Assembly (NCBI RefSeq): GCF_017873815.1
Contig: NZ_JAGGKQ010000002.1
Span: 124,001 to 188,000, forward strand
DNA length: 64,000 nucleotides
Source: Halorubrum alkaliphilum
GTDB taxonomy: Archaea > Halobacteriota > Halobacteria > Halobacteriales > Haloferacaceae
Direction: 5' to 3'
The position numbers and the translations under genes were made by a program. The notes under the pieces are model-generated. The model did no database searches and was not told the origin of the DNA. It worked only from the letters and a program-made list of their open reading frames with translations. Positions 6,197 through 52,405 of the stretch are shown piece after piece. The number at the start of each line of letters is the position of its first letter. Positions within the stretch are counted from its first letter, which is position 1.

Positions 6197-6214
6197 CGGG
6201 AGTAGGTCTCTCAA
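6197..6214. repeat. Left arm of inverted repeat flanking element copy A
   Basis: CGGGAGTAGGTCTC followed by TCAA. The reverse complement of this stretch recurs at 6732-6749 with one mismatch in 18, so the two arms bracket element copy A and span 553 bp. No target-site duplication is visible next to the arms. Confidence 0.6.
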
Positions 6215-6233
6215 ATCGAGAGCGACGTGATCG

Positions 6234-6243
6234 TATTTAAATA
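6234..6243 (+). promoter_or_regulatory. TATA box upstream of element copy A
   Basis: The palindromic TATTTAAATA lies about 30 bp before the first conserved block of element copy A. Initiation about 25 bp downstream would place a transcript start near 6265, just where homology with copy B begins. No protein gene starts nearby, which makes a non-coding transcript the natural candidate. Confidence 0.5.
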
Positions 6244-6266
6244 GACTGTGAGCGACAGCGACGACT

Positions 6267-6706
6267 ACTGATAGATGACCGATGCGGTCGGCGCGCCCCG
6301 GTGAGCGGCCCGAAGGGCCGCGAACCGACGGTGCGAGGGAGTCGGTGGTCCGTAGCGAAGCGGAGGACCACCGACGAGGCTGGGGAGGCGTGAGGTGCGG
6401 TTGTGGTTGCGGGGCGGGGTGGGACTCAAAGGGGCAGTCGCGAGGACGCCACAGGCGACGTAAGCACCGCAAGGAGCGAGTGAAACGAGCGACTGAGGAG
6501 CGCAGCGAGCGTGTGGCGTCCTCGCGACCGGGGCTTTGGAGGTGTTCACCGCCGATCCGCCAGCAACAATTTATAAGCGAGCGACTGGGGCTTTGGAGGT
6601 GTTCACCGCCGATCCGCCAGCAACAATTTATAAGCGAGCGACTGGGGCTTTGGAGGTGTTCACCGCGTCAGCAACGACGTATAAATAGCCGTCAGCAACA
6701 CTATTA
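6267..6706 (+). repeat. Dispersed structured element, copy A (candidate ncRNA)
   Basis: Copy A of an element that recurs inverted at 52416-51945. It fills most of the roughly 1-kb gene-free stretch between the ligase gene and tRNA-Ser. In order it shows: a 5' block ATGACCGATGCGGT-CGGCGCGCC (6275-6297); hairpin W (GCGGCCC/GGGCCGC, 6305-6321); hairpin X (11-bp stem, 6341-6351 with 6365-6375); a conserved core GACGAGGCTGGGGAGG; the 18-nt box TGGGACTCAAAGGGGCAG (6420-6437) identical in copy B; stem Y (17 bp, 6437-6453 with 6512-6528) closing a loop that contains GGAGCGAGTGAAACGAGCGA; then a 57-bp tandem array. The arms differ in sequence from copy B but still pair, which argues for a structured RNA or DNA function. 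Confidence 0.7.
6530..6705 (+). repeat. 57-bp tandem repeat array of element copy A
   Basis: Two full 57-bp units (6530-6586 and 6587-6643) and a third, degenerating unit from 6644. Each unit begins GGGGCTTTGGAGGTGTTCACCG and contains ATTTATAAGC, a good archaeal TATA box. The end of each unit (GCGACTG at 6581-6587 and 6638-6644) is complementary to the left arm of stem Y of the same copy (CAGTCGC, 6435-6441). Because 57 is divisible by three, one frame stays open through the array; I see no reason to treat it as a gene. Confidence 0.85.
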
Positions 6707-6731
6707 GATCATAAACAACCACTCAAACGTA

Positions 6732-6749
6732 TTGCGAGACCTACTCCCG
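6732..6749. repeat. Right arm of inverted repeat flanking element copy A
   Basis: Reverse complement of 6197-6214 with one mismatch; the 14-bp core GAGACCTACTCCCG is perfect (6736-6749). The remaining sequence to about 6890 shows nothing else I can name. Confidence 0.6.
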
Positions 6750-38303: not shown

Positions 38304-38425
38304 ACCCGCTCCTTCCGGAGGCGCGGATATAAACGGTTTGGAACGCCGTCGCCCCGATAGCGACCCGTCACCCCCAACCGGGACCACGCTCGCGTCGGAT
38401 CCGGACTGAACGGCCCCGACACGCC

Positions 38426-38511
38426 GATCACCACCAACGCCGACGATCACCACCAACGCCGACGATCACCACCAACGCCGACGATCACCACCAACGCCGA
38501 CGATCACCGAC
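38426..38511. repeat. 19-bp tandem repeat
   Basis: Four full copies of GATCACCACCAACGCCGAC (starting at 38426, 38445, 38464 and 38483) and a partial fifth. They occupy the middle of the 307-bp gap between the divergent aIF5A and HAD genes. Nothing else is seen in this gap apart from the aIF5A promoter. Confidence 0.95.
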
Positions 38512-41515: not shown

Positions 41516-41615
41516 GCGGTGTGCGCCACGCCGCGGGCGAGCGGTGTACGCCACGCCGCGGGCGAGCGGTGTACGCCACGCCGCGGGCGAGCGGTGTACG
41601 CCACGCCGCGATCGG
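41516..41615. repeat. 25-bp tandem repeat between convergent genes
   Basis: Four copies of GCGGTGTACGCCACGCCGCG plus GGCGA, beginning at 41516, 41541, 41566 and 41591; the first has one change and the last ends ATCGG. The array exactly fills the space between the two convergent stop codons (41508 and 41617). Confidence 0.95.
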
Positions 41616-51818: not shown

Positions 51819-51950
51819 CGGTGGTCGCTCCGGCAGTTCGTTTATATACGTAGCGACTGCCCTGCCGCGGTTCGTTTATAAATTCCTCTCGGAGCGTGGA
51901 ATCGGAGGGTGTAGTGTGATCCGAACGATGGAGTGACGTTGTTAACGGTC

Positions 51951-52118
51951 GTGCGCTTATAAATCGTTGATCGCGGATCGACGGTGAACTCCGCCAAAGC
52001 CTCAGCCGTGCGCTTATAAACTGTTGATCGCGGATCGACGGTGAACTCCCCCAAAGTCTCAGCCGTGCGCTTATAAACTGTTGATCGCGGATCGACGGTG
52101 AACTCTCCAAAGCCCCAA
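51951..52118 (-). repeat. 57-bp tandem repeat array of element copy B
   Basis: Units begin at 51951, 52008 and 52065 with exactly the 57-bp period seen in copy A. On the minus strand each reads about ACTTTGG-GAGTTCACCGTCGATCCGCG-ATCAACAGTTTATAAGC followed by a short variable segment. In two units that segment (plus-strand CAGCCGTGCG at 52003-52012 and 52060-52069) is the exact complement of the stem Y left arm of this copy (plus-strand CGCACGGCTG, 52201-52210). Confidence 0.85.
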
Positions 52119-52405
52119 CCGTGCGGGCGGCGTACGCTCGCTGCGCGCCTCGTCGCTCGTTTCACTCGCTCCTGCGGTGCTTGGCTTCGCCTACGCCGCC
52201 CGCACGGCTGCCCCTTTGAGTCCCACCCCGCACAGCAACCGCGCCTCGTACCTCCCCAACCTCGTCAGGGACGGTCGCCGAGCGGTTCCGGCGACCGTCC
52301 CTGACTCCAGCGAGAATTCTCTGGCAGCCGGCGCGGAGCGCCGGCGACCTCGCGCGGTCTGCTCGCGCCCTCTCGGACGCTCGCAGGCGCGCCACCGCAG
52401 TGGTC

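Follow-up and report, generated by a model that had tools for sequence, protein, structure and literature searches.

Elements A and B, located within the window (the whole stretch of 64,000 nucleotides of Halorubrum alkaliphilum DNA that was analysed), are members of a dispersed, intergenic and non-coding element family. Our preferred reading, to which we assign a probability of about 0.6, is that the family consists of structured hairpins, that the tandem units found next to them are duplicates of the hairpin foot and, more tentatively, that the element acts as structured DNA. A fuller version of this reading, in which the element would be a haloarchaea-wide, chromosome-restricted site with a hairpin standing on a G-quadruplex, copying between arms at the DNA level and, in Halorubrum, tails made of foot plus TATA-like box, is regarded as doubtful in its entirety. 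The features of the two elements are as follows.

6197-6749, + strand: element A, spanning two inverted end motifs, CGGGAGTAGGTCTC (6197-6210) and GAGACCTACTCCCG (6736-6749)
6305-6321, + strand: small hairpin GCGGCCC-GAA-GGGCCGC in the upstream part of element A (direct reading)
6341-6375, + strand: stem X of element A, GTCGGTGGTCC (6341-6351) with GGACCACCGAC (6365-6375) (direct reading)
6378-6388, + strand: conserved GGCTGGGGAGG 3' of stem X, element A (pattern count)
6417-6437, + strand: core GGGTGGGACTCAAAGGGGCAG of element A (57 genome copies)
6435-6530, + strand: stem Y and loop of element A, left arm CAGTCGCGAGGACGCCAC (6435-6452), right arm GTGGCGTCCTCGCGACCG (6513-6530) (covariation)
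6531-6538, + strand: fourth G-run GGG and CTTTG, the 3' strand of the basal helix, element A
6531-6587, + strand: array unit 1 of element A, TATA-like TTTATAAG (6570-6577), variable tag GCGACTG (6581-6587)
6588-6644, + strand: array unit 2 of element A, TATA-like box (6627-6634), tag (6638-6644)
6645-6694, + strand: third unit of element A, partial or degenerate, GGGCTTTGGAGGTGTTCACCGC followed by TATAAATA
51946-52116, - strand: three 57-bp units forming the array of element B, with CGCACGGCTG as the tag at 52060-52069 and again at 52003-52012; the tag at 51946-51955 is degenerate
52117-52210, - strand: stem Y of element B, left arm beginning CAGCCGTGCGGG, right arm ending CCGCACGGTTG
52208-52228, - strand: core of element B, GGGTGGGACTCAAAGGGGCAG (pattern search)

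A dispersed family of intergenic elements

With up to three mismatches, the core GGGTGGGACTCAAAGGGGCAG was detected 57 times in the 3.1-Mb genome to which the window belongs, compared to a single match for the reversed control. Fifty-five of these copies were located outside long open frames, as judged by a crude call, and no clear preference for gene orientation was apparent among the 35 copies for which genes were called on both sides (11 convergent, 8 divergent and 16 co-directional). When two mismatches were allowed, the core was present in 49 of the 52 genomes of the genus, often at 20 to 190 copies per Halorubrum genome. Three Halorubrum genomes (G025, G034 and G049) had no core match at this threshold and could serve as natural negatives; G034 is just 79% complete. 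Across the class, again with no more than two mismatches, the core was detected in 201 of 391 genomes and in 57 of 86 sampled haloarchaeal genera, while control matches were near zero. A GAAAG version is carried by, for example, Haloarcula, Haladaptatus, Natrinema, Natronococcus, Halorussus and Halobaculum, the minimal form in other genera being GGGTGGGACTGAAAGGGGC-stem-GGGGCTTTC. The sampling of copies was uneven, combining a one-per-genome set with a six-genome set, and the copies in the home genome could partly reflect recent amplification of one subfamily.

No exact match to either version of the core was detected in the viral-contig collection scanned, and a BLAST search with element A produced no matches among phage records and three weak partial matches among plasmids. 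An Rfam 15 scan of the window returned tRNAs only and hence no known RNA family for the element. Searches of the open-access literature, by concept and by sequence letters, found no paper describing or printing the core. A structure shared by genera and present in up to ~190 copies per genome, without an Rfam family or a description that we could find, constitutes a large annotation gap in a model archaeal group. A polar chromosome motif of the chi or KOPS type was considered and rejected, as one complete chromosome of a relative carried 78 forward and 81 reverse copies, and no strand bias along the replichores was apparent from these totals or from the positions of the forward copies, which were scattered over its whole length.

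Upstream of the core, stem X varied in sequence from copy to copy while the palindrome was kept, and GGCTGGGGAGG followed stem X in 154 of 163 copies of the Halorubrum type, compared to 0 matches for the reversed control. Stem X consisted of long G and C homopolymer runs in L021, L030, L038 and L046; as three of these are situated at contig ends, the homopolymers may have been produced artificially by the assembly. Exchangeable perfect hairpin modules were present in the stem Y loop, such as GAGAGCGGAGCTCTC and AGAACGCGAAGCGTTCT (L204 and many copies in the home genome, e.g., L007 and L015), as if small palindromes inserted into this loop.

Several other arrangements were observed. In other genera, hairpins were sometimes present as head-to-head pairs with cores ~24 to 27 nt apart (L097, L104, L106, L110, L330, L334, L344 and L346). 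A separate short repeat, TACGCACTCTTCAGCGACCGGCTGTTTCAGGC...GTCTGAA, adjoined many elements (e.g., the flanks of L002, L009 and L034) and was also present alone near genes (L121, L133, L135 and L138). A near-identical hairpin with stem CGCCGCTGG was detected in a common context in several Haloarcula-like genomes (L095, L098, L099, L100, L108, L112, L113, L114 and L116); several of these hairpins were on small contigs, and they possibly represent one mobile or plasmid locus.

Helices and G-runs at the hairpin foot

The foot of the element has the form GGG-Y-GGG-ACT-[NRAAG]-GGG-[stem Y]-GGG-[CTTYN]. In element A, for which stem Y had a fold z-score of -4.9, the core comprises two G-runs, CAAAG (6427-6431) as the 5' strand of the basal helix and the third G-run (6432-6434). 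The arms of stem Y were 97% paired within copies, as opposed to 76% when arms were shuffled among copies; right arms had been located by requiring good pairing, which inflates the within-copy percentage but does not affect the variety of pair types. The pentamers of the basal helix covaried (CAAAG/CTTTG, 126; GAAAG/CTTTC, 123; CGAAG/CTTCG, 11; GGAAG/CTTCC, 3). For 53 distinct foot-plus-stem sequences, in which the loop had been swapped for TTCG, the covariation score was 0.772 relative to 0.156 for shuffled sequences and no more than 0.10 with slid partners.

Conservation of the G-runs was assessed with 101 copies fetched by their units rather than by the core. Each G of the first three runs was at least 96% conserved in these copies, and the linker between runs 1 and 2 was T in 49 and C in 47. 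Apart from this linker, the core was 94 to 100% conserved in copies not selected on the core. The fourth run was GGG in 87 of 88 Halorubrum copies and in 124 of the 133 located copies of the other version from other genera, where a further 37 of 170 were without a locatable fourth run. There are, hence, four conserved runs of three Gs with free linkers. These analyses demonstrated that the structure of stem Y and of the 5-bp basal helix is preserved and that the GGG runs are near-invariant.

As the helices covary and all four GGG runs are near-invariant, a quadruplex-duplex DNA structure is suggested, with a putative G-quadruplex at the hairpin foot, but conservation of the G-runs could instead reflect protein recognition of a G-rich sequence. 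The haloarchaeal cytoplasm is KCl-rich. Tentatively, the element would be structured DNA, a hairpin plus a G-quadruplex at its foot, favoured by this cytoplasm, and a host factor might recognise the hairpin together with the quadruplex foot. If the quadruplex foot is real, quadruplex-duplex structures could be studied in vivo in haloarchaea, which naturally combine high KCl with a large number of genomic copies. Integron attC sites have conserved outer boxes, an unpaired spacer and a variable self-complementary inner stem; they resemble the element in architecture only and differ from it in that the spacer of the element is G-only. G-run motifs are present in haloarchaeal DNA and G4s have been studied in Haloferax volcanii (PMC12873603, PMC7565180). 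These G4-forming sequences are similar to the element in their G-run motifs, and term searches of both papers returned no mention of this dispersed hairpin-linked family.

Change at orthologous sites and comparison with mobile repeats

Elements were retained at orthologous sites across species, with flanks of ~85 to 93% identity. Fourteen orthologous pairs, three of which came from one three-genome set and are non-independent, contained 196 stem base pairs; 134 were unchanged, 6 had changed on one side and 49 on both sides, and 7 were unscored owing to a broken pair. Changes on both sides, therefore, made up 49 of the 55 changed stem pairs, and 23 were C-G/G-C flips (e.g., L067/L071/L238, L083/L218 and L245/L296). 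A G-U intermediate does not account for such flips in one step. The excess of both-sided changes argues against slow compensatory evolution through G-U and points to copying between the arms or replacement from paralogues. Arm complementarity might, tentatively, be kept by hairpin-templated or paralogous conversion. The orthologous-site data provide a testable case for such copying at the DNA level, between arms or from paralogues. Array size also varied between orthologous copies.

Of 29 other Halorubrum genomes, 25 lacked an element at the site of element A and four had one there, two in the plus and two in the minus orientation (L199 and L204 being opposite to L191 and L200). The orientation of the outer right flank was constant, as if the element had been inverted between its end motifs. 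When empty and filled sites were compared by eye, the flanks were too diverged for a target-site duplication to be defined.

These differences in occupancy and orientation would fit a MITE- or SMR-like element whose movement would depend on a trans-acting transposase, with the hairpin and array as passengers. Such mobility is the most probable of the alternatives but is nonetheless judged improbable. High copy number is in its favour, as is the fact that about half of the 57 copies in the home genome have similar inverted end motifs on one side or on both. There is also a precedent in Haloquadratum, which has MITEs, SMRs and 'switch repeats' in which the same element is inverted at one site (PMC3119063). 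The end motifs are not obligatory, however, being absent from many copies, and L199 is without the left one. No cognate transposon or target duplication was found, and 13 further end-motif loci read by eye had no obvious transposon between two such ends. Persistence at orthologous sites across species and strong structural covariation across genera also argue against this explanation, and haloarchaeal mobile DNA would not usually be so nearly absent from viral, phage and plasmid sequences.

Among published descriptions, that of the transposase-free repeats of Haloquadratum (PMC3119063) comes closest. Like the element, these MITEs and SMRs are short, non-coding and dispersed, have partly inverted ends and exhibit presence or absence and opposite orientations at one site. 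The element differs in that no transposon was found for it, its ends are optional, its structure is kept across genera and its sequence is diverse rather than >95% identical. Palindrome-associated transposable elements (PATEs; PMC3119063) are likewise non-coding haloarchaeal sequences with palindromes and divergent copies, but many, though not all, copies of the element have end-motif inverted repeats and the element has no defined near-terminal palindrome pair. An origin as a PATE/IS605-type end was rejected, as no core-like match (up to five mismatches) was present at 10 tnpB loci of the genome. REP/BIME sequences with RAYT (TnpA-REP) are also high-copy intergenic hairpins; the copy number of the element, by contrast, was independent of Y1-transposase genes, and genomes with 56 to 99 copies have none. 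A RAYT-dependent REP was, therefore, rejected, there being no Y1_Tnp in G018 (95 copies), G028 (85), G001 (99) or G014 (68). One to two Y1 transposases were present in G025 and G049, which have 0 copies of the element.

Tandem units and their relation to the hairpin

The 3' flank of Halorubrum elements often contains tandem units, usually of 57 bp, that extend from the foot of the right arm to a TATA-like box. Between 0 and 5 units were detected per distinct copy, with none in 40 of 146 distinct copies. The 57-bp period originally noticed in the arrays of both elements was confirmed (A, 6524-6666 with 98% matches; B, 51950-52125).

The TATA-like boxes, at the left end and in the units, could be promoters, the array then being a promoter array and the family a transcribed structured non-coding RNA. 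The left-end box is mostly located 15 to 19 nt before GGTGGCGCG, and in 102 of 152 Halorubrum copies [TC]TATAA lies exactly 40 nt beyond the end of the stem; covariation of the helices is also compatible with an RNA. Other genera are, however, without these boxes (right end, 1 of 129; left end, 2 among 27) while the hairpin is conserved there, and the ratio of both-sided to one-sided pair changes, 49 to 6, is unlike the usual evolution of RNA through G-U. Together with the absence of an Rfam match, these observations make transcription as an RNA family rather unlikely as the explanation.

The units of the two elements had attracted attention because a segment in each unit had been described as always matching its own element. 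For element A, both full units do end in GCGACTG, the complement of CAGTCGC in the left arm, whereas the right arm of element A itself reads GCGACCG. For element B, a 10-nt exact complement of the left arm CAGCCGTGCG was present in two units as CGCACGGCTG, while the third unit is degenerate (CGCACGACCG). A match to the own element was not general when 106 distinct Halorubrum copies with at least one unit were compared. The segment after TTATAAR was mostly a near-constant, family-wide consensus, YRAGCGGCTG (69 units with CGAGCGGCTG and 18 with CGAGCGACTG), and the exact complement to the own left arm was no longer than 7 nt in every copy except B. The apparent co-change in A and B mostly reflects the consensus common to the family, together with B as a single exceptional copy.

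Some tracking of the own hairpin was nevertheless detected in these 106 copies. A 7-nt complement to the own left arm was observed in 36 of them, compared to 21.3 expected from the tags of other copies. Position -4 (G/A of CG[G/A]CTG) agreed with the own right arm at a frequency of 0.82 as opposed to 0.64 after permutation (p<1e-4); tracking was marginal at position -7 (p=0.03) and was not detected at positions -8 to -10, -6 and -5. As the copies are related, these permutation values overstate independence and are not strictly probabilities. In a symmetric case-control comparison, 13 of the 21 elements chosen for their CTTCG unit had a CTTCG right arm, as opposed to none of the 20 chosen for a CTTTG unit (p=1.6e-5). 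The initial annotation had proposed a comparison of repeats and own stems in many copies; its expectation held clearly for position -4 and CTTYG, while the inner stem positions were not tracked.

The foot of the right arm, GCGRCTG-GGG-CTTYG, recurs in each unit. When the left arm was fixed as T at position -4, the unit had an A in 12 of 16 cases if the right arm had an A but in 4 of 17 if it had a G (p=0.005). When it was instead the right arm that was kept constant, as G, no significant dependence of the units on the left arm was seen (p=0.2). As unit sequence follows the right arm, at the foot only, and not the left, these data support duplication of the right-arm foot and argue against left-arm pairing as the cause of co-change. 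An origin of the units from the stem end, as suggested earlier, is thus supported. Units look like duplicates of the foot, resembling their own hairpin without any need to pair with it. Tandem duplication of right-arm foot, spacer and TATA box, by slippage or unequal recombination, is the likely source of the units, which would then be re-homogenised with the foot, and these two processes would probably account for the co-change of units and stem. Similar tracking would result if an old array and a variant of the foot had been inherited together, and any homogenisation is incomplete, as 8 of the 21 CTTCG-unit elements had a CTTTG right arm.

It had also been suggested that alternative pairing is functional. 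In a transcript, units would then rival the right arm in pairing to the left arm, acting as a switch or an attenuator. The basal helix does have its whole 3' strand repeated in each unit (CGRCTG-GGG-CTTYG, up to 12 bp), and the excess of 7-nt complements in first units (36 of 106) is in keeping with this idea. Where the arms disagree, however, the unit follows the right arm, and 11 of the 21 elements with a CTTCG unit have a CAAAG left strand, producing a mismatch for unit pairing. The inner stem is not copied, complementarity exceeds 7 nt in B only, and 40 of 146 distinct copies are without a detected unit. The predicted RNA fold of element A has the two arms of the element paired with each other, and the array folds apart from them. 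Functional alternative pairing is, accordingly, very unlikely. Resemblance through shared consensus alone, with no tracking at all, is still less probable, for while consensus accounts for most of the match, the inner positions as well as positions -6 and -5 are untracked and the signal was barely significant in a first, smaller sample (38 copies, few with true units), position -4 (p<1e-4) and the case-control difference in CTTCG (13 of 21 versus 0 of 20) speak against it.

The window contains two more near-perfect tandem arrays, unrelated to the element, at 38425-38508 (19 bp, 4.4 repeats) and 41516-41610 (25 bp, 3.8 repeats).
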